46,225 nucleotides of DNA from an uncultured Bacteroidales bacterium (GTDB lineage: Bacteria > Bacteroidota > Bacteroidia > Bacteroidales > UBA4417), in NCBI GenBank assembly GCA_903879715.1, contig CAIRMR010000006.1, positions 1-46,225 of the forward strand, read 5' to 3'. Numbering within the stretch: the first letter of the stretch is position 1; every line of letters starts with the position of its first letter. The notes beneath the pieces were generated by a model. It made no database searches. It was not told the origin of the DNA and was given only the letters and a program-made list of their open reading frames with translations. Position numbers and translations under genes: made by a program. Positions 7,009-44,246 of the stretch are shown piece by piece.

Positions 7009-7082
7009 GGTTCGGTAGTTCAGTTGGTTAGAATACGTGCCTGTCACGCATGTGGTCGCGGGTTCGAGTCCCGTCCGGACCG
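7009..7082 (+). tRNA. tRNA-Asp (GTC)
   Basis: A complete 74-nt cloverleaf. The acceptor stem GGTTCGG/CCGGACC has one U-G pair and the discriminator base is G73. The anticodon stem CGTGC/GCATG carries the loop CTGTCAC with anticodon GTC. The T arm is CGGG-TTCGAGT-CCCG. CCA is not encoded. Its 3' end is the attachment site of the element that follows; the 3' 14 bases of the tRNA plus one more base are repeated at 32746-32760, so the tRNA is kept intact by the inserted element. Confidence 0.97.
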
Positions 7083-7083
7083 C
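7069..7083 (+). other. attachment site, left copy (tRNA end)
   Basis: TCCCGTCCGGACCGC, covering the end of the T arm, the acceptor 3' strand and one base past the discriminator of tRNA-Asp. An identical 15-mer is at 32746-32760 in the same orientation. Bases on either side of the two copies differ, which fixes the repeat length. Confidence 0.88.
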
Positions 7084-7159: not shown

Positions 7160-8449
7160 TTACGATTTACCAATACTATTCCCAATATTGAGCATTTGAT
7201 CAATATCAGCATCACTCTTGATATATTTCTGTAGAGTCGTGAGCTTCTTATGTCCTGTGATTTTCATAATCTGGTGATAAGGGAGCCCTTTGTCAGCAAG
7301 TAACGTTGCCAGAGTTCTTCGAGCAGTATGGATGACCACCATTTCGTATTTCTTTTTCAGTTCCCTAACTTCAACACCACCTTTAGTGTATTTCTTTTCA
7401 ACGGTCACATTCATACTGGGTATTTTCTTGCAAATCTTTTTGATTTCACATAGAACTGTTACATCACTGATAGGTTCAGGGAAGTTGTAATTATACTTCT
7501 GTCCTATTCTTTTAATTGTTTCAAAAGCTGGTATAACAGACTTTTCACCAGTCTTGCTAGAACGAAACGAAAAGGATTTTGCAGTGGGATTTATTACAGC
7601 TATAAAATTCGCCAAGTCGCTTTTCCTTACCCCGCTCCACACATACAGAAGGTATTGGTCTCTGATAAGGTCGTGGAATGAATTGTCTGATAGATCCAAA
7701 GATTCAAGATCCTGTAACTCTTGCTCGGTAAATACAACAACATCACACTCCTCTGTGGTTAATACCTTTTTGTATTTCTTGAAAGGATTAAAAGGAATCA
7801 ATTCTTCATTAACAGCAATCTGTAGAAATGCTTTTAATGTTTTTAATCTGTTATGGATAGTGTTCTTTGCCATCTTCTTCTCATTAATGATATAGTATTC
7901 AAACTCATCAATTAGTTTGATATTGGTCATATCATCAATGTAGTAATGGGTTTTCTTCTTGAATTTCTGGAAGCCTTCCAATGCTAAAATCAGGGAATTG
8001 TAACAGCTAATTGTTTGGTAACTGAACTTTTTCCCATTGACCAGTTCGCGACCATTTTCTCTCTGTTCTTTAATACCTTTAATGTACTCGACCAATTTAA
8101 CTTTCTTGTTCAAGGTGAAGTATTCGCCAACTGATTTGTTGGTTCGAACAAAGGCTTTGAATGCCATTTCAGTTGGATATCTTTTATGCAGGCTATAATA
8201 TTCCGAATAAAATTTTTCTATGGTTCCTTTAATTCGATTCAGGTCATTCTGGATGTAGGAATTTTCCTGTTTACCCTTGCCTGTCTTCATCCTACCTTCA
8301 TCCCATTCTTTCACATAGATTGTACTATTTGGCACAGTGAAATGATACCTCTTCAATCCTGATGGCTGAACGGAACAACGAATAGTTGACTTTTCCTTTT
8401 TTCTGTCTTTAATGTAAAATGAAACCATATTTGTATATTTTAATTCCAA
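7160..8449 (-). CDS. tyrosine site-specific integrase
   Basis: 429 residues with the three-part layout of Bacteroidota integrases: an N-terminal arm-binding domain (residues about 1-110), a SAM-like core-binding domain (about 125-225) and a C-terminal catalytic domain. The catalytic residues are visible: Arg in SGVRKSDL (near 271), Lys in SSKTGEKSVIP, HTARR (HxxR, near 372), the His of GHKKLTTLQKYI, and the Tyr in that same segment. It should recombine the attP of the element with the tRNA-Asp 3' end. It lies 77 bases inside the left attachment site, and its start overlaps the end of the excisionase-like gene by 10 bases, so the two are co-expressed. Confidence 0.95.
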   Translation of the reverse strand: MELKYTNMVSFYIKDRKKEKSTIRCSVQPSGLKRYHFTVPNSTIYVKEWDEGRMKTGKGKQENSYIQNDLNRIKGTIEKFYSEYYSLHKRYPTEMAFKAFVRTNKSVGEYFTLNKKVKLVEYIKGIKEQRENGRELVNGKKFSYQTISCYNSLILALEGFQKFKKKTHYYIDDMTNIKLIDEFEYYIINEKKMAKNTIHNRLKTLKAFLQIAVNEELIPFNPFKKYKKVLTTEECDVVVFTEQELQDLESLDLSDNSFHDLIRDQYLLYVWSGVRKSDLANFIAVINPTAKSFSFRSSKTGEKSVIPAFETIKRIGQKYNYNFPEPISDVTVLCEIKKICKKIPSMNVTVEKKYTKGGVEVRELKKKYEMVVIHTARRTLATLLADKGLPYHQIMKITGHKKLTTLQKYIKSDADIDQMLNIGNSIGKS

Positions 8450-20383: not shown

Positions 20384-21550
20384 TTATCCTAATATATCAT
20401 CCAACAATTTCTGCTTTAAGTTCTTCAGAGTTGTTTTTTGCTGTTTCAGTTGATCCATTGTTAAATCAAACTGCTTGAATATGGATATCAACTCCTTTTG
20501 TTTTTCTTTTTTCGGTAGTGTGAATTCTTGTTGGGCAAGCGTTTTATTCTTAATTGTTGGTGAGAGTGAACCTTCCGAAATTTGAACGGCCCGGCTCATA
20601 AATGTATCGGACTGCATAAAATAGGGAAGAAAGTCTTTCTCTATATACTTTTCGTTGGCTCTTAAAATCATACTGTGAGCAGAAGCAATTCCATCAAAAT
20701 GTGATACAGCTACTTTGCGTAAATAAGCTCTACGCTTGCCGAAAATGATATCTCCTTTGTAAATTTTTAGTTTTGTTCCTATTACATCATCAGGTGTTCC
20801 GGTTCTTTCGATCCTAAGATTGTCTGCGTCCAGGTGTTCCAAGCCGACATAAGTTATAAGTGTCGTTTTCTTTGGTTCAACTCTTTCCGAAATATTAATA
20901 GCTACTTTATCAAACTTTACTGTTTCAAAATCTTTTTCTTTTAAATGATGACCAAAATGTTGTTTTTCGCTAAAAAGATCTCGAAGCAAATTATTTTTTA
21001 ATTGCATTAAATTCTTCTCCTGACCTTCAACATACTCCATAGAAGTTTCTATGGATTGAAAAAGGGAAGCTATTTGTTTTTGCTCTTCGAGTGGTGGAAC
21101 AGGTATTTTTAATGTGCCAAGATTAGTAGTATTTACGTTGGGTTGTGCAGAGCCTATTTTAATTCCATTAAGCTGTTTTAAATAATTTGGCGAATTAAGA
21201 AAACTAAAAAAGTAATCTGGATTAATTTTGTCTTCTTTCAATAATATCCTTAACAAATATGAAGCAAAAACAAATCTTTCACCCGATTTGTGTATGTATG
21301 GTTTTCCTGCTGTTGCTCCACTTCGAGCGATTAAGACATTATTTTGTTTTAATTCATATTTAGCATAAGTTTTCTCATTTACTGTGGTAAATCTTAGCCC
21401 ATCATTTAATCTACCAGTTTCATTTATATCTGTTATTCTTAAAAGTACTGTGTTTCCTGTATCGTCTGAACTTGCTGTTATACCATATTCAATATCCTGA
21501 CTTAAATCCTCAAGCCGTGCAATTTCCCATTTGTCTTTTCTCAACTTCAT
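20384..21550 (-). CDS. hsdS: type I restriction enzyme, S (specificity) subunit
   Basis: 388 residues with two target-recognition domains separated by helices. TRD1 covers residues about 1-155, with the boundary PVPPLEEQKQIASLFQ at 152-167 and the central spacer helix VEGQEKNLMQLKNNLLRDLF. TRD2 runs to about 340, closing with a second helix FDLTMDQLKQQKTTLKNLKQ. Each half recognises part of a bipartite DNA site. The start overlaps the end of hsdM by 4 bases (ATGA). Only one hsdS is present and I see no silent TRD cassettes nearby. Confidence 0.92.
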   Translation of the reverse strand: MKLRKDKWEIARLEDLSQDIEYGITASSDDTGNTVLLRITDINETGRLNDGLRFTTVNEKTYAKYELKQNNVLIARSGATAGKPYIHKSGERFVFASYLLRILLKEDKINPDYFFSFLNSPNYLKQLNGIKIGSAQPNVNTTNLGTLKIPVPPLEEQKQIASLFQSIETSMEYVEGQEKNLMQLKNNLLRDLFSEKQHFGHHLKEKDFETVKFDKVAINISERVEPKKTTLITYVGLEHLDADNLRIERTGTPDDVIGTKLKIYKGDIIFGKRRAYLRKVAVSHFDGIASAHSMILRANEKYIEKDFLPYFMQSDTFMSRAVQISEGSLSPTIKNKTLAQQEFTLPKKEKQKELISIFKQFDLTMDQLKQQKTTLKNLKQKLLDDILG

Positions 21551-23022
21551 ACTTCTATCCCTATGTTCTTTAGTTGAGTAAATAAATTGTCCAGTGTAGA
21601 ATTAATTTGGGCTTGATTGGTTTTTATATCAGTAATCAAGTCTTTAGTAATATGTTTATTATCTACAGCACCCTGTTTTACATATAATTGTAGACTCAGA
21701 TTCCCATTGTTTTCTAATACCTCTCTTGTAGTCATTACTTTGGCGAAACCCTCGGCATCTTTATAATTCCAATAAGCATCGCTGATTTTTTTTAAATGGT
21801 GTGGCTCCAGCCAGGCATTGGTGCGTTCAATCCGTAATTCGTCTTTTGCATCAATAAAAATAATTTTACCTGTACGTTCTTCCGGTTTTTTCATCCGGCA
21901 TACCAGCAAACAACTTTCCATACTGCTGTTGTAGAAAAGGTTTTTACCTAATCCAATAACCGCATCAACATAATCTTCTTCAATCATTCGTTTACGGATA
22001 CCGCTTTCTGAGTCACGGAATAAAACACCGTGAGGCCAAAGCACAACTGAACGACCAGTTTCCGGATTTAAACTTTTCATAATGTGTTGTTGGAAAGCAT
22101 AGTCGGCACAACCTTGTGGCGGAGTTCCCCAGATATTACGTCCGAATGGATCATTCATCCATTTTTGCTGGCTCCATTTCTTTACAGAATATGGCGGGTT
22201 CGCCATTACAACATCGAACTTCTTGAGTTCGTCGTTTTCCAGTATCTGTGGGCTGTCCAATGTATCACCCTGTACAATGAGGAATTCATCAACATTGTGC
22301 ATAAACATATTGATACGGGCAATGGCTGATGTAATCAGGTTCAACTCCTGCCCAAAAAGTTTCAATGTCCGGTACTCTTTCCCCTGGGATTTAAGGTGAA
22401 GTGCTGAGCTCAATAAGATCCCACCGCTCCCACACGTAGGATCATAGATACTCTCAGTACTTTGTGGATCGGTAATTTGGGTCATTAGTTTTACAACGGT
22501 GCGGTTAGTGTAGAACTCGGCCGCTGTGTGTCCGCTGTCATCAGCAAATTTCTTAATCAGGTATTCATACCCTTCTCCCATTATATCGTGTGGTACATTG
22601 GCGACACCTAAATTCATCTGGCTGAAATGCTCAATCAAGTCGAGCATTTTCTCATCACTCATACGGCGTTTGTTCGTCCACTGAGCATCACCAAAGACAT
22701 CGTGCAACATTTCGAAGTTGGCTTTTTCGATACCATTCAACGCTTGTTGTAAAGCGGCACCAACATCAATGGTTTTTTTACGAATATCATCCCAATGACA
22801 TCCTGCCGGTATTTGAAACCTATGGTTTTCGGCAAATTCGGCATAACTCAGATCACCATCACCTTCATCCAAAGCAATTTGATATTCTTCGTCCCACAGG
22901 TCACTAACACGTTTAAAGAAAAGTAATGGGAATATATATTGCTTAAAGTCAGCCGCATCAATCATTCCCCGTAGGATGTTAGCAGCACCCCACAGGTAGT
23001 CTTCTAATTGTTTTTGTGTCAT
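21547..23022 (-). CDS. hsdM: type I restriction enzyme, M (methyltransferase) subunit
   Basis: About 491 residues. The N-terminal HsdM helical domain begins MTQKQLEDYLWGAANILRG. The methyltransferase shows motif I YDPTCGSGG near residue 195 and the catalytic NPPY motif (MANPPYSV) near residue 273, so it makes N6-methyladenine. I place the start at 23022 rather than 54 bases upstream, because a promoter -7 box (23074-23081) overlaps the longer frame. It is the first gene of the operon hsdM-hsdS-nuclease-hsdR. Confidence 0.93.
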   Translation of the reverse strand: MTQKQLEDYLWGAANILRGMIDAADFKQYIFPLLFFKRVSDLWDEEYQIALDEGDGDLSYAEFAENHRFQIPAGCHWDDIRKKTIDVGAALQQALNGIEKANFEMLHDVFGDAQWTNKRRMSDEKMLDLIEHFSQMNLGVANVPHDIMGEGYEYLIKKFADDSGHTAAEFYTNRTVVKLMTQITDPQSTESIYDPTCGSGGILLSSALHLKSQGKEYRTLKLFGQELNLITSAIARINMFMHNVDEFLIVQGDTLDSPQILENDELKKFDVVMANPPYSVKKWSQQKWMNDPFGRNIWGTPPQGCADYAFQQHIMKSLNPETGRSVVLWPHGVLFRDSESGIRKRMIEEDYVDAVIGLGKNLFYNSSMESCLLVCRMKKPEERTGKIIFIDAKDELRIERTNAWLEPHHLKKISDAYWNYKDAEGFAKVMTTREVLENNGNLSLQLYVKQGAVDNKHITKDLITDIKTNQAQINSTLDNLFTQLKNIGIEV

Positions 23023-23047
23023 ATTGTATATAAAAAATTCAGAGTTT

Positions 23048-23081
23048 AAAGGTAGCCACCTTTTCGAAATCACCAAAGTTA
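23048..23081 (-). promoter_or_regulatory. hsdM promoter box and palindrome
   Basis: On the minus strand TAACTTTG (23081-23074) matches the -7 consensus. Just downstream, AAAGGT-AGCC-ACCTTT (23048-23063) is a palindrome with 6-bp arms lying in the leader, where a repressor could bind. A -33 element is not clear. Confidence 0.5.
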
Positions 23082-23227
23082 TTATTGAGGTTTGATAGAT
23101 TCATACTTTATCCAAAGAATATGGTAATATCGACAGCCAAACAAATTTTGCTAAAGTTTAAGGTCTTTAAATTAGGCAGTCTCGATAAAAATATCTAAAT
23201 TAGCTCATAACCAGCAAATTAACGAAA

Positions 23228-23794
23228 ATGAAAAATGTAGCACTTTATCTCAGAGTCAGTAGCCAAACACAGACGGTTGACAATCAAAGAATCCGGTTAG
23301 TAGACTTTGCTGAAAAAAATAATTACTCTTTTGATGTGTATGAAGAAGTGGAATCTACTCGTAAAACAAGACCTGTGAAACAAGCCCTACTGGCCAAACT
23401 CAGACAAAATACGTATGATGCCGTAATTGTCTACAAACTTGACAGGTGGGCTCGGTCAAGTACTGAGCTTATTTTGGACACAAAGGAGCTTTTGGATAAG
23501 GGAATTGGTTTCATTTCTGTTTCCGATAACCTGGACTTTTCTACTGCTGCTGGTAAATTACACTTTCAAATTCTTTCTGCTTTTGCTGAGTTTGAGCGTG
23601 AACTGATCCGTGAAAGAACTATCGAAGGTTTAAGACGTGCTAAAGCACAGGGTAAAACAGCTGGACGTCCGGTTGGGAGTAAAGATTCCAAAAAACGAAA
23701 GAAATCCGGGTACATACTTCGAGAAGCAAAAAAGCGACAGGATGTTGATTCCGGAAAAGGTATCCACAAATCGGTTGAAGCTTACCTAAACTAA
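23228..23794 (+). CDS. serine recombinase (resolvase/invertase family)
   Basis: 188 residues. The catalytic domain shows YLRVSSQTQTVDNQ (nucleophile Ser near residue 11), YKLDRWARSSTEL (arginines near 80), and FAEFERELIRERTIEGL (helix E). The C-terminal part has the usual GRPVGSKD linker followed by a short, very basic tail instead of a clear HTH. It is transcribed away from hsdM. Proteins of this class invert or resolve DNA between short sites. Whether it serves the element or a flanking site is not clear; no inverted site pair around it is obvious by eye. Confidence 0.88.
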   Translation: MKNVALYLRVSSQTQTVDNQRIRLVDFAEKNNYSFDVYEEVESTRKTRPVKQALLAKLRQNTYDAVIVYKLDRWARSSTELILDTKELLDKGIGFISVSDNLDFSTAAGKLHFQILSAFAEFERELIRERTIEGLRRAKAQGKTAGRPVGSKDSKKRKKSGYILREAKKRQDVDSGKGIHKSVEAYLN

Positions 23795-23983: not shown

Positions 23984-24505
23984 TTACTGCTCCGGAGGTG
24001 ACTGGTTCCAAGCGTTTTTTCCTCTCACTATTCGATTTGCTCTTTTACAAATCTCAAAAATATTTACATCCAATTCATCAACTAAATCTCTACATTTTCC
24101 CATTAGCATATCAAGGCGTTCACCCTCCTCTAAAGTGAATGTCTGGACTGTTGAATTCCCATCAAGATCTGTATTAGTGATGTCAAGAAAAGATGATTCT
24201 GGACTATAAGATATGTGCTCTTTTTCAAGAAGAATGAAAAACATTTCTATGTCATCAAGGGTTTCAATATCCTCTATATCTATTGTTATCGTTTGAAAAG
24301 AATATTTATTTACTCCATCAACAAACATAGCCCAAACGAAACCCCTAGCGTCATTTTCATTTTGGAACAAGGTATCACGGGTTATGAAGTCTTGGGGATC
24401 TTTAGATTTAAGGTCATCAATAACCGAAAATAATTCAGGCCTGATTACTGATTTGATTTCATTGAGGTATTTGTTGTATTTGGCACCAAATTCAATAGAG
24501 TCCAT
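23984..24505 (-). CDS. hypothetical protein with an intact paralogue-type N-terminus (173 aa)
   Basis: 173 residues, acidic and soluble, with no recognised family. Its first 63 residues match the short ORF at 31564-31779: SIEFGAKYNKYLNEI versus AIKFVANYDSYLEEI, and NENDARGFVWAMF versus SENDARGIVWGMF. The rest (YSFQTITIDIEDIETLDD onward) is missing in the short copy. It follows the serine recombinase convergently and precedes the AGIR-tail cluster. Confidence 0.7.
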   Translation of the reverse strand: MDSIEFGAKYNKYLNEIKSVIRPELFSVIDDLKSKDPQDFITRDTLFQNENDARGFVWAMFVDGVNKYSFQTITIDIEDIETLDDIEMFFILLEKEHISYSPESSFLDITNTDLDGNSTVQTFTLEEGERLDMLMGKCRDLVDELDVNIFEICKRANRIVRGKNAWNQSPPEQ

Positions 24506-25045: not shown

Positions 25046-25645
25046 TCACCCTTCCATCAGAAGCAAATAACCTATACCCGTTGGAATACCAAGAATAAGA
25101 ACACATTTGAGGTAGTCTGAGAACGGATCAAATCCAAAAGCAAACCCAAAACATATCACTTCAAGTAAAATAAAGGAATATATAAAATACTTGGAGTTCT
25201 TTCGTTTAGTAAAAAAGGTATGTCTTAATGAAATTAATGTCTTTACGATATAGCTTATAAAAATAATTAACGTGAAATTTTTAAAATTTGAGTAATGCTG
25301 ATCAACATATTCAGAACTATATTGGCTTGTGGTTTTGAACCAGTTTACAAAAAGCTGAAAAAACATATTGTTACTATACTCTTGCTCTAAGACATCAATA
25401 TAATTTAAGACTTCAAATAATTTGTAGGCAATAAATCCAAATAGCGCTGCTGAAATTAATCCTAGAAATGAGAAATATAGGCTATCTTCTTGTGATTGAT
25501 TTACTATATTTGATCCGATCTTTTCTTTATCATTAGGATATTTCTTTAGCCACAGTTCCACGAGTTTTATATCTGATAAATCATCGTAATCTCCCGGATA
25601 CGATTTTCTTATTTCTGTGGCGAATTCATTTATTGTGTACTTCAT
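25046..25645 (-). CDS. EFAxEIR-headed membrane protein, no AGIR tail
   Basis: 199 residues. The head, residues 1-45 (MKYTINEFATEIRKSYPGD, then DDLSD, LWLKKYPNDKEKI), is nearly the same as that of the 26394-26720 gene. Three to four transmembrane segments follow (about 55-75, 110-130, 145-165, 170-195). It ends GYLLLMEG and has no AGIR tail, the only cluster member without one. It follows the gene at 25663 by 17 bases. Function is unknown. Confidence 0.7.
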   Translation of the reverse strand: MKYTINEFATEIRKSYPGDYDDLSDIKLVELWLKKYPNDKEKIGSNIVNQSQEDSLYFSFLGLISAALFGFIAYKLFEVLNYIDVLEQEYSNNMFFQLFVNWFKTTSQYSSEYVDQHYSNFKNFTLIIFISYIVKTLISLRHTFFTKRKNSKYFIYSFILLEVICFGFAFGFDPFSDYLKCVLILGIPTGIGYLLLMEG

Positions 25646-25662
25646 ATATCAAAATTTTTAAA

Positions 25663-26310
25663 TTATCGGATTCCTGCACCATCTCGATCTTTCTGTTTTA
25701 TATAAGGAGTGGGGATTTCAATTTTCTTCTTAATAATCTGATGCTTTATTAAGTCCTTGTTTACGAAGAAATTATTAATGTATTTATAGAGTGCAAAGAG
25801 ATTTAATAGGATTAATGTAATAGTGCATACTAAGGATACATAATTGAGATTAAAATAGTAATTTTCACCATACGTGAAATAACTATCAGGGAAATAATAT
25901 AATCCGACCATATAAACAATATCCAAAATAAATAGAATTGACAAAAATATATTTTTATAATTAAGAACTATTGCCATTAAATCAAAGAATATAATGAAAG
26001 AGATTAACGTTTTTGTATCAGGATCATAATAGTAGCAAGACAACCTATAATAGGATAAGATGAGCCCAGGATGAAAGATTACATAAAAAACAATCATTCC
26101 ATTTAGGAATATGAGGATAATAATTGCAAGAAAATAAATATTTGTTCTCACAATATTTTTGAAAAGTGAGCTTTTACTATAATTTGCGTCTTTTGGTGTA
26201 TAGTCTACAACATTGGTTGAACCTTTAAAATGTTTAACTTTTTCTCCACAAGTCGAACAGAATCTTGTTGTCTGAGATATTATTTGGCCGCAATTTTCAC
26301 AAAAAGCCAT
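25663..26310 (-). CDS. zinc-ribbon membrane protein with AGIR tail
   Basis: 215 residues. The N-terminal zinc ribbon is FCENCGQII, then FCSTCGEKV (CxxC, CxxC). Four hydrophobic segments follow (about 53-75, 95-115, 118-138, 160-180), then a charged segment. The C-terminus is IPTPYIKQKDRDGAGIR. Heads and tails match the neighbours: zinc ribbon as in 26738 and 28285, tail as in those plus 26394. It is probably an inner-membrane protein with the ribbon and tail in the cytoplasm, but topology is not certain. Confidence 0.75.
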   Translation of the reverse strand: MAFCENCGQIISQTTRFCSTCGEKVKHFKGSTNVVDYTPKDANYSKSSLFKNIVRTNIYFLAIIILIFLNGMIVFYVIFHPGLILSYYRLSCYYYDPDTKTLISFIIFFDLMAIVLNYKNIFLSILFILDIVYMVGLYYFPDSYFTYGENYYFNLNYVSLVCTITLILLNLFALYKYINNFFVNKDLIKHQIIKKKIEIPTPYIKQKDRDGAGIR

Positions 26311-26393
26311 AATGTTTGATTTATATATTGGGGTTTGTATTATTCAAGTTAAATAAACTCATTTATCGTGTTCTTCATCGGAACGAAAATTTG

Positions 26394-26720
26394 TTATCTG
26401 ATACCAGCTCTATCTTGATCTTTCGGCCTTATTGGAGAAATGTTATCATTGGAAGTCCAAGAGTTTAATACCTTAGGAATCAGGTATATCACGATACCAA
26501 TAACCAATATCCACAAGAAAGGAATAAAAATAGCGCAAATTATAACAACTATAGTTACTGCTATCTCAAACCCGCATCCTGTGCTTGATTTAATCTTTCC
26601 TTTGTCATTTGGAAACTTATTTAGCCAGAGAGATACAAGATCCTTATCCGACAAATCATTATAGTCATTTGGATAAAGTCTTCTGATTTCTTGTGCAAAT
26701 TCACTTTTAGTGTACTTCAT
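26394..26720 (-). CDS. EFAxEIR-headed small membrane protein with AGIR tail
   Basis: 108 residues: the head MKYTKSEFAQEIRRLYPND, then a DLSD and PNDKGKI segment as in 25046, a pair of tightly packed hydrophobic segments (about 50-70 and 70-87), then SPIRPKDQDRAGIR at the end. It is the smallest member and contains little beyond head, membrane anchor and tail, so it shows the modular plan most clearly. It starts 17 bases after the 26738 gene ends. Confidence 0.75.
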   Translation of the reverse strand: MKYTKSEFAQEIRRLYPNDYNDLSDKDLVSLWLNKFPNDKGKIKSSTGCGFEIAVTIVVIICAIFIPFLWILVIGIVIYLIPKVLNSWTSNDNISPIRPKDQDRAGIR

Positions 26721-26737
26721 ATTTCTGAATCATTATG

Positions 26738-28174
26738 TTACCGAATCCCGGCACTATCTTTAGGTTTAATCGGAGAAGTAGGAATGACAATATTCTTCTC
26801 TTTTTCGAAATCATTCTTAAAGTAAAAATTATAAAAATTCATTAGTGCTTCTAAAACTAAATCACACCCACCAAACTCACAAGTAACAGATGTTGGATTT
26901 TTATCTCCCGGATTTATAAAATCCATCATAAAAGTAGATTTCCTGTGAGTAATGGATGTAATAATCGAAAGACTGGCAAACACAGCAGTTCCGTCAGATG
27001 AAAGAACAAATAGCTTACTATTTTGAATATCATTATCAAAGGAAGCAATTAGAAATCCAGTATCACCTTTACCCATAAGTGTATCATCATAATATACATA
27101 AAAGGTGTTGTAATCAAAAGATGCAATATCTGGCATTCTTTTTAAAAAATTATTTGCAAAAGCATTTGTCTTTTTATTTGGTATATTTTCACCTAAATAT
27201 ACTTTAAATCTTTGGGTAAGATGTCCAAAATACCTTTCAAAATCAAGAGGCATAATTGAGTCATCTTCGTCCAACTCGTCTTCATCTTCGTTATTATCTC
27301 TATCTTTAAAATCATAAAAAAAGTGTCTTAAAGCTGACAATACATAAGCACAATTGGGAAAAGAAAATTGAAAGTTCTCTGTTTTTCCTTGATAATAATA
27401 TTCAATCATCAATTTTGTGTCGATTTGCTCAATTTTATCTATAAGAGAAAAATGGATACCCAGCGAGGTATAGCCATTATTAATAATTAATCGAATATTA
27501 CCATTATCAAACCAATCATCACTTTTGTCCAAGACTTCTATCAGAAAACTATTCGCTCCGTCATCTGACATTTGGTCTTCAAAATACACATAGGGTGAGT
27601 ATTCACTTGAATCATCAAAATGTATCTTATCTTTAGAATTGAATTGATATTTTGAAAAAAAGGCATTAAGTTTACTTTTGGGAATACGGTCCGCTAAATA
27701 CAGATTATAATCTTTGGGCAAATTTCCAAAATATTCATCAAAATGATAATCGTCATAGAAACAATATGCACCTTGACGGCTTTCAGCGACTTTAGAAAGA
27801 TTTTCTAATGTTTTCATCTGAGCATCAGAAAAATGAATCTCATCATCAACGCTAGATGTTTCTGTTATCTTGATATTTACTAAACCAATTCCATCGCAGT
27901 ATATACACTCTCCTGGACTCCAATTATGTTCCATCGACAATCTTTTTATATCATCAATGTCAACGTTTCCTTTTCCCATACATCTTGGGCAAGTAATTAT
28001 ACCTTTTTCATCTGGGGGATTGTCTTCAAGAAAAGTTTCTAAACTCCACTGGGGTATAGTCTCTTTAGATTGAATTTCTGTTGTTGGAGAAATGTTATTT
28101 ATCTTCTCACCACAGCTTTTACAGAATTTAGCGGTGTCGGAAAGTTTATTTCCGCAATTTTCACAGTATGACAT
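26738..28174 (-). CDS. zinc-ribbon protein with duplicated domain and AGIR tail
   Basis: 478 residues. Order: zinc ribbon CENCGNKL / FCKSCGEK (1-25); a second, DnaJ-like zinc motif CPRCMGKG / CIYCDGIG (about 58-88); two copies of a domain of about 130 residues (about 140-290 and 310-455); and the tail SPIKPKDSAGIR. The duplication is visible as FDEYFGNLPKDYNLYLADRI against FERYFGHLTQRFKVYLGENI, and SFLIEVLD against GFLIASFD. No membrane segment. No family recognised; the two zinc motifs suggest binding to RNA, protein or DNA. Confidence 0.75.
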   Translation of the reverse strand: MSYCENCGNKLSDTAKFCKSCGEKINNISPTTEIQSKETIPQWSLETFLEDNPPDEKGIITCPRCMGKGNVDIDDIKRLSMEHNWSPGECIYCDGIGLVNIKITETSSVDDEIHFSDAQMKTLENLSKVAESRQGAYCFYDDYHFDEYFGNLPKDYNLYLADRIPKSKLNAFFSKYQFNSKDKIHFDDSSEYSPYVYFEDQMSDDGANSFLIEVLDKSDDWFDNGNIRLIINNGYTSLGIHFSLIDKIEQIDTKLMIEYYYQGKTENFQFSFPNCAYVLSALRHFFYDFKDRDNNEDEDELDEDDSIMPLDFERYFGHLTQRFKVYLGENIPNKKTNAFANNFLKRMPDIASFDYNTFYVYYDDTLMGKGDTGFLIASFDNDIQNSKLFVLSSDGTAVFASLSIITSITHRKSTFMMDFINPGDKNPTSVTCEFGGCDLVLEALMNFYNFYFKNDFEKEKNIVIPTSPIKPKDSAGIR

Positions 28175-28249
28175 AGTTTTGTGAATTATTCAGGTTAGGT
28201 CAAAGTTAAGTTATTTTCTTTCAATCGGACAAAACCAACAATAGCTTAT

Positions 28250-28270
28250 CCCCCCCCCCACACACACAAA
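28250..28270. repeat. C10 and CA tract upstream of the duplicated-domain gene
   Basis: A run of ten C's (28250-28259) is followed by ACACACACA. On the minus strand this is GTGTGTGT then G10, 76-85 nt before the start at 28174. Homopolymers of this length can slip, and in a leader or promoter can vary expression. Confidence 0.75.
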
Positions 28271-28284
28271 GGCTGATAATAAAA

Positions 28285-29883
28285 TCATCTAATACCAGCT
28301 CCATCTTTAGGTTTTATAGGAGAACCATCCATATCTTCGTTATAGTCTTCATCCTCTTCGTTATAATCTTCATCCTCTTCGTTATAATCTTCATCCTCAT
28401 CGTTATAGTCTTCATCCTCATCGTTATTGTCTTCATCCCAATCGTTATTGTCTTCATCCCAAATCATATCATCGCCTTCAAAATCCGTTTTAGTATAATC
28501 AAATTGGGGTTGTATGATCCAATTACCGAATTTATCAACAAACCCGTATTTGTTGGTAATTGCCGCTTTTAAAAGCTCATTTCCTCCTTTTTCCAGCATC
28601 AAAAAAATGGGTTGAATCATCCATTGACCTTGGCGATCAATGCAACCCCATTTGCCATTTAACTGTGCTTCAGTATAATCACATTTACCAAAACTCAGTG
28701 CTTCATCAAAAATAGGCTGAATAACCCAGTTCCCCTGACGATTGATGAAACCGTATTTGTTATCCACTGCGGCCGGAGCAAAATCAAATTCATCAAAAAT
28801 GTCGAGGTAATCAAACAAAGGCTGAATTGCCCATTGGCCCTGACGATTGATAAAACCGCTTTTGGATTTTGATAGTGTTCGAGCCAAATCCTTTTCATCG
28901 AAACCCCAAGATGAATCAAATATTGGTTGAATAGCCCATTGGCCTTGGCGGTTGATAAATCCCCATTTATCATTAGATTTTGCACAAGCAAAATCTTTTG
29001 CATCAAAATCAAAAACATTATCAAATACTGGATTAATTACCCATTCGCCTTGCCGATTGATAAAACCACATTTACCTTTAGATTCTGCAAGAGCATAATC
29101 CTTTACATCAAAATCCGAATTAGAATCAAAAATGGGCTGAATGACCCATTCACCTTGCCTATTTATAAAGCCGCTTCTGCCATTTGCTTGTGCGTGGGAA
29201 TAATCTTTCGAATCAAACGTATTGAGATAATCAAACCTCGGTTGTATAACCCAATGACCTTGACGATTAATACAGCCCCATTTACCATTAAGTTTTGCAT
29301 TGGCATAATCCTTTTCATCAAACCTAACGAGACCATCAAACATAGGTTGTATAACCCATTCACCTTGACGGTTAATACAGCCCCATTTACCAGCAATTTT
29401 TGCCGGTGCATAATCTTTTTCGTCAAATTCCTCAATAGTGTCAAACAAAGGTTGGATGACCCAATGGCCTTGAGAATTAATAATTCCCCATTTGCTGTTT
29501 AATCCTACCCGTGCGGTATCGTCTAAACGAAAACCATCTTCGAAGTCAAATGAAGGCTGAATCACCCATTGACCCTGTCGATTAATAAAACCAACTTTCA
29601 AAACTCCTTGTCCATCTTTGATTGATGCTGGTATAAGATCCAATGATGGAATAACAGTTTCTCCATTTATCTTTTCACTATCCAAGTTTTGGATTTCTGT
29701 TTCTTGGATGCGAACAGAATCAGAAATAGTTGATTGAGGTTGAGCAACACTGTTCAAATCTCTTATACTTTCATTTCGTTCTCCTAAATTCTGCTCCTCT
29801 GTAGTTTTAACTTGTTCTCCACATTTAGAACAGAATTTTGTTGTTTCGGAAAGTTTATTTCCGCAATTTTCACAGTATGGCAT
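28285..29883 (-). CDS. WG-repeat protein with zinc ribbon and AGIR tail
   Basis: 532 residues. Zinc ribbon CENCGNKL / FCSKCGEQV (1-25), a variable linker, then about ten copies of a 35-residue WG repeat (GFINRQGQWVIQPIFD-type), which in known families forms beta-sheet protein-interaction surfaces. An acidic stretch with a seven-residue repeat (NEEDEDY) precedes the tail SPIKPKDGAGIR. The first 25 residues and the 5' leader next to the ATG are nearly identical to those of the 26738 gene. It is the first gene of the cluster, so its promoter probably drives all five. Confidence 0.8.
   Translation of the reverse strand: MPYCENCGNKLSETTKFCSKCGEQVKTTEEQNLGERNESIRDLNSVAQPQSTISDSVRIQETEIQNLDSEKINGETVIPSLDLIPASIKDGQGVLKVGFINRQGQWVIQPSFDFEDGFRLDDTARVGLNSKWGIINSQGHWVIQPLFDTIEEFDEKDYAPAKIAGKWGCINRQGEWVIQPMFDGLVRFDEKDYANAKLNGKWGCINRQGHWVIQPRFDYLNTFDSKDYSHAQANGRSGFINRQGEWVIQPIFDSNSDFDVKDYALAESKGKCGFINRQGEWVINPVFDNVFDFDAKDFACAKSNDKWGFINRQGQWAIQPIFDSSWGFDEKDLARTLSKSKSGFINRQGQWAIQPLFDYLDIFDEFDFAPAAVDNKYGFINRQGNWVIQPIFDEALSFGKCDYTEAQLNGKWGCIDRQGQWMIQPIFLMLEKGGNELLKAAITNKYGFVDKFGNWIIQPQFDYTKTDFEGDDMIWDEDNNDWDEDNNDEDEDYNDEDEDYNEEDEDYNEEDEDYNEDMDGSPIKPKDGAGIR
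28332..28458. repeat. 21-bp tandem repeats encoding the acidic region
   Basis: On the minus strand, units of 21 bases encode NEEDEDY-type heptads, about six copies, with the last two diverged (DNNDWDE). The repeats stay in frame, so copy number can change without breaking the downstream AGIR tail. Confidence 0.75.
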
Positions 29884-29925
29884 AGTTTTGTGAATTATTA
29901 AGGCTAGTATAAAAAACTCTAAATG

Positions 29926-31563: not shown

Positions 31564-31779
31564 TCAACCTTTGGTAGATACCCGATCTCTCTTAATAAAC
31601 ATACCCCATACAATTCCTCTGGCATCGTTTTCAGAATGGAACCAAGTATCAGGTCCAATTGTATCGTGAGGATCTATTTGTTGTAGTTCTTCAATTATTG
31701 GATACAGTTCCATCTTGACTACAGATCTGATTTCTTCGAGGTATGAGTCGTAGTTGGCTACGAATTTAATAGCATCCAT
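31564..31779 (-). pseudogene. truncated paralogue of the 23984-24505 gene
   Basis: 71 residues. The first 60 follow the 173-residue paralogue closely (MDAIKFVANYDSYLEEI, SENDARGIVWGMF), then diverge for about ten residues (IKRDRVSTKG) and stop. The C-terminal 110 residues are absent and I see no continuation in other frames. Either a deleted remnant or a short form that is still made; the ATG and its spacing to the next gene (28 bases) are intact. Confidence 0.6.
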
Positions 31780-31807: not shown

Positions 31808-32398
31808 CTAAAGTGTATTCCCAACCTTAATAGGACACACATTATGATCCGATATTGTAAGGTATAACCGGTTAAGGTTAAACAGGGCTATCGGATTTCT
31901 CTTGGCTAGAACACCATATTCAGCTATTACATTCTTATAAAACACATCAACCCTTTCGTCTATATGTTTGGATACAATCGCTGAGAATTCATTATTTGAT
32001 TCATTTATACTGTCCTGATCAATATCCAAGAAATCAAAACACCAAGCTTCGCACAATTCACTAACAAACATACCTGAATAAACCCCCTCAAGCGAGTGTC
32101 GATGGACGAATTCGTCAGAGTTACACCAGATAAAAACATTATTTTTCTTACTTCTGATGGATTCAACCATCGAATAATCAATGATATATGAACCACAATC
32201 TGGAAATCGGTTCATAGATAGCAAACCCATTGGTGTGCCGTGGCCCAGCAAAAGTACCCGGTCATTAACATCAATATGTTTCTGCAACTCCACTTTGGTT
32301 ACTCCACCGGTAATGATAGTTTTATTTGTCAGGGTTGCATAAATTCCAGTCAGGAATTTGGTGGTATCATCTTCAGGATGAACAATGAGTGTTTTCAT
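31808..32398 (-). CDS. caspase-fold-like cysteine peptidase-type protein
   Basis: 196 residues from the Met at 32398 (MKTLIVHPEDDTTKF); seven codons upstream are possible but unlikely. A caspase-like layout is visible: a strand ending in LLGHGTPMGLLS (His53) and a second strand ending in NVFIWCNSDEF (Cys92), the His-Cys dyad order of clan CD peptidases. YSGMFVSELCEAW follows. It lies 28 bases before the truncated paralogue. Catalytic activity and substrate are not proven; clan CD members often cleave after Arg or Lys. Confidence 0.55.
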   Translation of the reverse strand: MKTLIVHPEDDTTKFLTGIYATLTNKTIITGGVTKVELQKHIDVNDRVLLLGHGTPMGLLSMNRFPDCGSYIIDYSMVESIRSKKNNVFIWCNSDEFVHRHSLEGVYSGMFVSELCEAWCFDFLDIDQDSINESNNEFSAIVSKHIDERVDVFYKNVIAEYGVLAKRNPIALFNLNRLYLTISDHNVCPIKVGNTL

Positions 32399-32458
32399 AA
32401 TGGCTAATATAAGCGCCATTTTAAATTTGGCCTAATGATTGGATAAATAATCAATACA

Positions 32459-32745: not shown

Positions 32746-32760
32746 TCCCGTCCGGACCGC
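32746..32760 (+). other. attachment site, right copy
   Basis: Exact copy of the tRNA-Asp 3' 15-mer with no tRNA around it. It is followed at 32767 by a hairpin and T-run that would have been the original terminator of tRNA-Asp before insertion. Confidence 0.88.
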
Positions 32761-42410: not shown

Positions 42411-42554
42411 TAATTTCTGTTTTACCCGATTTTACTGATTAAATTAAGTTTACCCGAAAGACATAATGAAACATGTCTTATGTCAGGAACAACTGTAAAT
42501 GATATAAGTACTCAATCAAAGAATCATCATAATTATTTAATTAAATCCTTGCTC

Positions 42555-44246
42555 ATGAAAAAAAATCTACTTCTCCCGGTACTAGTTTGGGCAGTTATAT
42601 TTTTCAGCTGGACGGATCAACTGTTCGCCCAGAAGGCCGACACTGTAACCGTAGTTGCGCCTATGCCCGGCGACTTGTACAAATTCATAGAAAAAGACAC
42701 GTTGTCCAATGGTAACAGGGTAAATCCAAATCGGTATTACCGCCTTGAAAGAGGGAAGGTTTATGTTGTAAATGCCACTATGTATTACAGGCATAGCGTT
42801 AATCTGATTGCAGATAACGATGACCCTAAAAGTCCTAAACGGCCACCAATTCTTGTAAACGGAAAACTGGCTGACGGTTCGAATAATCTGATTATGGTGG
42901 CTCTGATGAAAAATGGCACAAATTGTTTGTTTAAAAATATATTATTTCAGGGTGTGAGTGCAACCCGCACGCAAGGAGACGATAACCAGGCTTTTGCGCT
43001 CGGCGGCGATAGTATCAGGCTTTCAGTTGATGGTTGCGTTTTTAATGCTTTTGGCATGCAATCGATTGTAATATGGGGGAAAGCCAATAAATTTTATATC
43101 AGGAACAATATTTTCAGAAATATGGTTCAGAACCATCCATTTAAGGGTCAGTTGATCGCCAATAGCGGAGCGTTGGACCAGGATACTATTATAATTACCA
43201 ATAATACATCATTCAACAACAACTCATATTTCTGGGCGCCACTTCAGGCAATTATGAATTATGAAAAGATTGAGCACAACACATTGTATACTTCAATTGT
43301 AAATGTTTTTTATTCGCCCTGGATGGTGAATGCGGAAATCCGGGATAATTTATTTTATGGTATGCTGGCGTATGGTCAAATGCAAAGTGAAATAGATGGC
43401 GGATGGTACGATTTTAACAAGAGTCTAAGTAGCATAATAAGCATGACTACCATAAGTTCATTTATTCTCGGATTACATGGGATGACAGAAGCTGGCCGGA
43501 AGGTTACAGTCAGCAACAATGCTTATTTCTGGCCACAAAAAATCAAAAATTATTGGGCACAAACCCCGAATATGTTTGCCAGCGACCTATGGATGAATAC
43601 CAGGACTCTGGATTTATTTGCCGACAAAACAAAACACCCGAATTTCCTTGCTGAGAATAACATATCGGCTGATCCGCAATTTAATGCTACAATGGAAAAT
43701 AAGGTATTGGATAGTGTTGTTTCCTGGACTTACAATATGCGTACAAACAGCAAATCATCCTTTAGAAATTACAATGTAGGCAGTACCGACATTTTACTTC
43801 CTAGCTGGCCATTACCCGAAAAACTGGCTTATGCTAATACACAACTTCTAACCGCAGGTCATGATGGACTGCCGATTGGCGACCTAAACTGGTTCCCGGC
43901 TGCAAAAAATCAATGGAACGTATTAAATGGTTTTCCACTAGAGAATACAATGACAGGAGTTCAATCACCACTCCAGGCCAATCATGAAAACCTTCAACTA
44001 AGCAATTTTCCGAATCCGGCAAATCATTTAACCACTATTTCATTTAACCTTCCTTTAGGTGGAAATACGGTTTTGAAAATATATAACCTTCAGGGCAAAG
44101 AGGTTGCAACTATTATTAGCGCTAAGCTCGACATGGGAAGCCATAACTATCAATTTGATACAAGAGAATTATCACCAGGAGTTTATGTTTGCCATTTGAA
44201 TTCAGGGAACTTAACGGCAAAAAGTAAACTTATTGTTACGAAATAA
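42555..44246 (+). CDS. secreted right-handed beta-helix protein with T9SS tail
   Basis: 563 residues from the ATG at 42555, chosen because the signal peptide (MKKNLLLPVLVWAVIFFSW ... FAQ) begins there. Residues about 110-320 have the repeated NNxF / IxxN pattern of parallel beta-helix proteins (FKNILFQGV, CVFNAFGM, IRNNIFRNM, ITNNTSFNN). The last 80 residues are a type A sorting domain: NFPNPANHLTTISFNLP, LKIYNLQGKEVATI and GVYVCHLNSG, for export by type IX secretion. Many such helices are polysaccharide lyases, but I cannot identify a catalytic site. Confidence 0.8.
   Translation: MKKNLLLPVLVWAVIFFSWTDQLFAQKADTVTVVAPMPGDLYKFIEKDTLSNGNRVNPNRYYRLERGKVYVVNATMYYRHSVNLIADNDDPKSPKRPPILVNGKLADGSNNLIMVALMKNGTNCLFKNILFQGVSATRTQGDDNQAFALGGDSIRLSVDGCVFNAFGMQSIVIWGKANKFYIRNNIFRNMVQNHPFKGQLIANSGALDQDTIIITNNTSFNNNSYFWAPLQAIMNYEKIEHNTLYTSIVNVFYSPWMVNAEIRDNLFYGMLAYGQMQSEIDGGWYDFNKSLSSIISMTTISSFILGLHGMTEAGRKVTVSNNAYFWPQKIKNYWAQTPNMFASDLWMNTRTLDLFADKTKHPNFLAENNISADPQFNATMENKVLDSVVSWTYNMRTNSKSSFRNYNVGSTDILLPSWPLPEKLAYANTQLLTAGHDGLPIGDLNWFPAAKNQWNVLNGFPLENTMTGVQSPLQANHENLQLSNFPNPANHLTTISFNLPLGGNTVLKIYNLQGKEVATIISAKLDMGSHNYQFDTRELSPGVYVCHLNSGNLTAKSKLIVTK

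Follow-up and report, generated by a model that had tools for sequence, protein, structure and literature searches.

Genes at the tagged locus

We analyzed a 46,225-nucleotide stretch of DNA (contig CAIRMR010000006.1 of assembly GCA_903879715.1, hereafter the window) from an uncultured Bacteroidales bacterium, in which a C-terminal peptide, PKDxAGIR, recurs on neighboring genes. Of five consecutive minus-strand genes, here called A1, A2, B2, A3 and B3, the first four end in AGIR, with the stop codon directly after Arg. The initial annotation had reported these four C-termini and their stops at 25663, 26394, 26738 and 28285, and the sequence confirms them. Its statement that the tail codons differ between copies also holds, but the first two entries of its codon listing are swapped if gene order was meant, as 25663 reads GCAGGAATCCGA and 26394 reads GCTGGTATCAGA. 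The genes and their parts are as follows.

29816–29907, minus strand: leader and zinc-ribbon start of A1
28285–29883, minus strand: A1, 532 amino acid residues; zinc ribbon, WG repeats (11 Pfam stretches), acidic linker and tail SPIKPKDGAGIR
28285–28323, minus strand: A1 tail including the stop codon
28107–28198, minus strand: leader and zinc-ribbon start of A2, 86% identical to the A1 counterpart over 92 nt
26738–28174, minus strand: A2, 478 residues; zinc ribbon, duplicated soluble domain and tail SPIKPKDSAGIR
26738–26776, minus strand: A2 tail including the stop codon
26585–26759, minus strand: A2-tail/B2-head junction, one copy of a 175-nt repeat
26394–26720, minus strand: B2, 108 residues; EFA head, transmembrane segment and tail SPIRPKDQDRAGIR; likely a fusion of a B gene with an A tail
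26394–26438, minus strand: B2 tail including the stop codon
26356–26378, minus strand: decayed start of a further EFA head behind the B2 tail, reading MKNTINEFI-stop
25663–26310, minus strand: A3, 215 residues; zinc ribbon, multi-pass membrane body and tail IKQKDRDGAGIR
25663–25707, minus strand: A3 tail including the stop codon (PYIKQKDRDGAGIR)
25510–25684, minus strand: A3-tail/B3-head junction, the other copy of the 175-nt repeat
25046–25645, minus strand: B3, 199 residues; EFA head and hydrophobic segments, without tail

Among the 42 mechanically called open reading frames (ORFs) of at least 100 residues in the window, AGIR was the sole repeated C-terminal 4-mer and occurred four times. 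The 6.07-Mb genome to which the window belongs was then searched with a degenerate AGIR-stop pattern that admits Trp for the stop and Ser for Arg. It matched 29 times, compared with 6 times for the reversed control. These matches comprised the four window genes, nine sites with TGG instead of a stop codon and 16 others, all of which were translated. Three of the 16 read Ser for Arg. In the remaining 13, the longest ORF with a start codon was 81 residues, begins with TTG and looks spurious, and the other ORFs did not exceed 9 residues. No further convincing gene ending in AGIR-stop was found among the 29 matches examined.

Recurrence of the A–B gene pair

The genome samples used below overlap, and their counts are not additive. 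A profile of the two window heads matched, in addition to the source genome, one other of 395 class genomes, that of Bacteroidetes bacterium SI072_bin56 (G464, E value 5.9e-20), which belongs to another order of the same class. The gene immediately preceding the EFA head of G464 ends in SPIKPKDSAGIR; this tail was thus reached via the head profile. A scan of genome contigs with a single PKDxAGIR-stop pattern returned 18 stretches, all of which were inspected: four read Trp for the stop, four read Ser for Arg and ten read AGIR-stop. Two of these ten belong to convincing genes, one (L073) within the G464 contig and the other (L079) in Sphingobacteriia bacterium SCN18, and both are directly followed by an EFA-head gene. 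A 447-residue ORF of an acidobacterium (L066) was judged spurious and has no EFA head beside it, and none of the remaining seven stretches had an ORF of at least 30 residues ending there. The SCN18 gene encodes a zinc ribbon, MORN repeats and the tail KKPKDGAGIR, and its EFA-head membrane-protein gene starts 4 nt behind it; in both G464 and SCN18 this start lies no more than 12 nt after the tagged gene. The clustering with one constant extra gene that the initial annotation had proposed to look for was therefore found, albeit in a small sample: an EFA-head gene is adjacent in all three genomes with a convincing tail, all of which are Bacteroidota.

In these two further genomes (G745 and G746 in this search), a profile of the tail identified one convincing tail each, and the three weaker matches lacked AGIR-stop. 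In 395 phylum genomes, nothing but the four window tails scored below E 0.03. Weak matches (E 0.038–1) occurred in 100 other genomes of this sample, and the 29 loci fetched for them contained no AGIR-stop stretch in any frame. Similarly, weak matches were found in 8 other genomes among 277 of the order, none of whose loci had AGIR-stop in any frame, and the four matches of the tail pattern in viral contigs all lay in frames interrupted by stop codons just upstream. Marginal matches to the head were found in 5 others of 395 phylum genomes (E 0.006–0.009) and in 1 other of 108 genomes of the order of G464 (E 8e-4); the six loci of ~3 kb around them had no AGIR end in any frame. Because no relative of B2 was found in 15 other genomes of its own genus, the cassette is, judged by this distribution, patchy cargo.

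Selection on the tail peptide

Across six tails from three genomes, the proportion of differing synonymous sites (pS) over the four AGIR codons was 0.86 and that of non-synonymous sites (pN) was 0. With the K and D codons added, pS was 0.81 and pN was again 0. A hand count from the codons gave at least 8 changes within AGIR, all of them synonymous, for which the probability under neutrality is ~6e-5. These values are to be read with the fact that the motif was picked for being conserved and that the SCN18 tail was found by requiring it. The tail of G464, which was reached via its head, consists of the same 12 residues as that of A2, with 7 synonymous and 0 amino acid differences over 12 codons, despite body domains that are only ~31% identical overall (41% over the best 71 residues). 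Thus, the suggestion in the initial annotation that selection acts on the peptide is borne out.

Features of the A and B proteins

Zn_Ribbon_1 (PF13240) was found at the N-terminus of A1 (27.5 bits), A2 (27.6 bits) and A3 (24.6 bits) as well as in the A protein of SCN18 (36.3 bits). With a Pfam cut-off of 25 bits, A1, A2 and SCN18 A are above it and A3 is just under it. B2 had no Zn_Ribbon_1 match in Pfam. The middle portions vary substantially, with WG repeats (WG_beta_rep, PF14903) in A1 (E 8.9e-95), the duplicated soluble domain in A2, membrane helices in A3 and MORN repeats (PF02493) in SCN18 A. A2, A3 and B2 had no WG repeat match in Pfam. The visible part of G464 A combines WG repeats (E 2e-17), as in A1, with the A2 domain in a single chain. 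This A2-type domain was found only in the source genome and G464 among 198 class genomes searched. Their union in the chain of G464 suggests that A1 and A2 work together in a common assembly. Because no hydrophobic segment was found at the threshold used, A1, A2, SCN18 A and the part of G464 A that is seen are probably cytosolic. Beyond the zinc-ribbon, WG and MORN parts, no family was identified for the A and B proteins, whose other matches were weak and sub-threshold. The acidic linker of A1, which is rich in D, E, N and Y and lies just before the tail, is encoded by a run of 21-nt repeats (28340–28480).

Three other zinc-ribbon proteins above the cut-off, two in the source genome and one in G746, are encoded outside the cassettes and lack the tail. 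Immediately upstream of the one in G746 are three tandem genes (L098, 307–1493), which we take to be beta-grasp or ubiquitin-like from their look.

All four B proteins have an EFA head followed by a hydrophobic segment. The first 46 residues of B2 are 67% identical to those of its untagged neighbor B3. In an AlphaFold prediction of B2 from 4 sequences, the head had a predicted local distance difference test score (pLDDT) of 85–89, and the tail had a score below 50 and no secondary structure. No relatives of the EFA head, A2 or SCN18 B were found in viral contigs, and plasmids gave no match for B2, B3, A2 or the SCN18 head. The idea that relatives of the EFA head are borne by phages was not supported: the SCN18 head matched 43 phage records with a best E of 4, the 30 of the 43 that were listed being nearly all annotated as replication proteins, and the G464 head matched one record at E 8. 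These matches were judged to be due to chance.

Origin of the B2 tail

The junction consisting of an A tail, 17 nt and a B head is present twice inside the 175-nt repeat, whose copies are 70% identical. The decayed B start at 26356–26378 is identical to the B3 start at 20 of 23 nt, which was equaled by 2 of 2000 simple shuffles, and matches the B2 start more weakly (40 of 2000 shuffles). The B2 tail is, on this pattern, probably a recombination fusion, in which a deletion joined B2 to the tail of a former A-tail/B-head junction; as a fusion, it would not be an independent invention. The tagged proteins had initially been described as otherwise unrelated. Their middles do differ, but A1–A3 share the zinc ribbon and B2 shares its first 46 residues with B3. 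The further view that four unrelated proteins had acquired the tail separately is not upheld, given that A1–A3 are zinc-ribbon paralogs and that B2 most likely obtained its tail via the fusion. Of the initial interpretation of the tail as a recognition signal, what stands is the selection at the peptide level and the clustering.

A docking-tag model and its alternatives

We propose that the cluster may be a mobile cassette of two genes in expanded form. Its gene A would encode an N-terminal zinc ribbon, an exchangeable middle and a C-terminal K-[PQ]-K-D-x(1-3)-A-G-I-R (B2 has R in place of the first K). Gene B, starting 4–17 nt downstream, would encode a helical EFA head of ~45 residues, then a hydrophobic segment and an end that varies. 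In this reading, the tail would most likely be a disordered short linear docking motif, presumably on the cytosolic side, through which different A proteins would all attach to the same cytosolic partner. The strongest candidate for this partner is the EFA head of B; docking there would collect the A proteins at the membrane. Binding to this head is proposed because a C-terminal peptide that is conserved and disordered while the bodies change has the look of a docking motif, and because B is the only constant neighbor. The neighbors scanned included no ligase or protease gene that recurred at all tagged loci; an E1-like gene was near one locus. As a whole, the docking-tag model, whose binding step we infer from sequence, is held tentatively, at somewhat less than an even chance. 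A broader version is doubtful: the cassette would be a new class of defense-type mobile membrane complex, in which PKDxAGIR plugs interchangeable sensors or scaffolds into an EFA-head hub and tag swapping by recombination creates members such as B2.

Several observations weigh against docking on B. The A–B pairing would also be expected if A and B merely move as a unit, and B2, carrying both head and tail, could bind itself. In the PDB, nothing meaningful matched the EFA head (best E values of 1.4 for fold and 0.17 for sequence), and the predicted structure of A2 (pLDDT 34) gave no usable model. Since the contig scan was restricted to the PKD-x-AGIR spacing, tails spaced as in A3 and B2 would have escaped it. 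Moreover, the module is known from only three genomes, two of which are metagenome-assembled, and the A gene of G464 is cut by the contig end, its zinc ribbon lying outside the visible part. Finally, A1 keeps its tail without a B gene directly behind it, which would also fit a tail read by a general host factor outside the cassette, such as a protease, a chaperone or a targeting or modifying enzyme, with B as a fellow traveler. The predicted disorder of the tail where it was modeled, in B2, agrees with such a factor as well. Tails would, however, be expected on other host genes, and none were found in the source genome; among the 18 matches of the contig scan (one tail form), the two convincing genes are both beside B. 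We regard a host factor as rather unlikely.

It is improbable that A1–A3 assemble with one another, the tail of each binding the zinc ribbon of a different A protein and B serving only as an anchor. Ribbon and tail are the constant ends of the four complete A genes (A1, A2, A3 and SCN18 A), as docking of this kind would predict, but B2 is tailed without a zinc ribbon and the three zinc-ribbon proteins outside the cassettes are untailed. Duplication and gene conversion among paralogs might instead have left the tail as a functionless relic. The duplication of the tail–head junction as a unit and the fusion-derived look of the B2 tail would suit this origin, which is nevertheless disfavored and quite improbable: the synonymous sites of AGIR have largely changed with the amino acids unchanged, the tail is identical in G464 although the body domain is ~31% identical, and an intact A gene with a decayed tail was not seen among five A genes. 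Least probable, and disfavored because of the codon pattern, is a DNA or RNA element, such as a recombination site or a signal coupling the start of B, that is coding by chance. A B start does lie within 4–17 nt after four of the six tails, but third codon positions vary freely, the tails of A1 and B2 have no intact B gene behind them, and the intergenic bases look unlike between lineages by eye.

If the docking-tag model is correct, the cassette would be a natural plug-in system in which a single short peptide serves to recruit many kinds of bodies, and its constant neighbor B would be a candidate receptor that is directly testable. The tail and the EFA head together may also serve as a search key for an undescribed module near defense genes.

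Genomic setting

The module lies in a 25.7-kb genomic island, as deduced from an integrase gene beside tRNA-Asp and a repeat of the tRNA 3′ end at 32746–32760. The relevant features are as follows.

7009–7083: tRNA-Asp
7084–32760: genomic island carrying the module, 25.7 kb
7160–8449: tyrosine integrase, adjoining tRNA-Asp
31808–32419: GHG/IWC small protein
32746–32760: exact repeat of the last 15 nt of tRNA-Asp, at the other island end

Other genes of the island are a VapE-like one, those of a type I restriction system and one for a serine recombinase whose similarity to Mpi stays under the curated cut-off. The type I specificity and modification genes adjoin the serine recombinase (20384–23794), and together they are possibly a phase-variable restriction system. 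A related gene pair (31564–31779 and 23984–24505), 53% identical over 62 residues with the first gene shorter, brackets the tagged cluster.

Within 10 kb of the G464 pair are genes for a WYL regulator and for an AAA_15 ATPase that matches several profiles of defense ATPases. At the SCN18 locus, a gene for a BilD/ThiF-like E1 and one with marginal similarity to BilB lie ~10 kb from the pair (L124, 3–2259) and are likely a ubiquitin-like conjugation operon; a further gene of this operon had no profile match and, from a motif, is presumably a JAB peptidase. Nearer to the SCN18 pair are an HNH gene and a gene that weakly matches a restriction enzyme. These neighborhoods suggest that the cassette may take part in conflicts with phages or other elements. 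In PADLOC 2023, A1, A3, B2 and B3 had no match at E ≤ 0.01, and A2 had a partial match to BnzA (E 1.4e-4) that covers 48 of 544 profile positions and is not convincing.

The gene for the GHG/IWC protein is near an A–B pair at two loci, in G464 as a short frame. The protein was not found in 197 other phylum genomes sampled and did occur in two viral contigs, where the stretches fetched had no AGIR end. It was rejected as a constant partner because it is absent from the genome of SCN18 and present in those viral contigs. It has a look that we take to be caspase- or CHAT-like; a PDB sequence search gave nothing meaningful.

Comparison with known systems

No described system with a PKDxAGIR tag was among the literature matches listed, as far as their abstracts show. 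Nor did GAGIR, PKDGAGIR or PKDSAGIR occur among those listed, and SAGIR was an acronym where the abstract shows its use. The A proteins contain the domains of known zinc-ribbon, WG-repeat and MORN-repeat proteins and differ from the over-cut-off zinc-ribbon proteins outside the cassettes of these genomes in bearing the tail. The E1 and E2 of Bil-type conjugation are not constant companions, since BilD/ThiF-like and marginal BilB-like genes occur near the SCN18 locus only; ThiF was found neither among the 28 window proteins nor among the G464 proteins scanned.

Similar to the Por_Secre_tail of the type IX secretion system and to LPXTG and PEP-CTERM, all of which are C-terminal sorting signals, PKDxAGIR is a conserved C-terminus on differing bodies. 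Different from these signals, however, it has ~12 residues and forms no domain, and no hydrophobic segment was found in A1, A2 or SCN18 A. None of the four tagged proteins had a Por_Secre_tail at E ≤ 0.1, and the same library finds one in the window at 42480–44246. The tag of transfer-messenger RNA (ssrA) is likewise a C-terminal peptide on different proteins. That tag is added in translation, whereas PKDxAGIR is encoded in each gene with differing codons.

By analogy, the tag may work like known C-terminal docking peptides. The cargo-loading peptides of encapsulins and the tail of single-stranded DNA-binding protein (SSB) are short C-terminal peptides that bring different proteins to one partner. 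A Pfam search of 28 window proteins, which did not extend to the remainder of the genome, found no encapsulin shell family. PKDxAGIR is similar to these peptides in being a short C-terminal peptide common to different proteins, but it ends in Arg, and the gene constantly beside it encodes a membrane protein whose head is small and helical.

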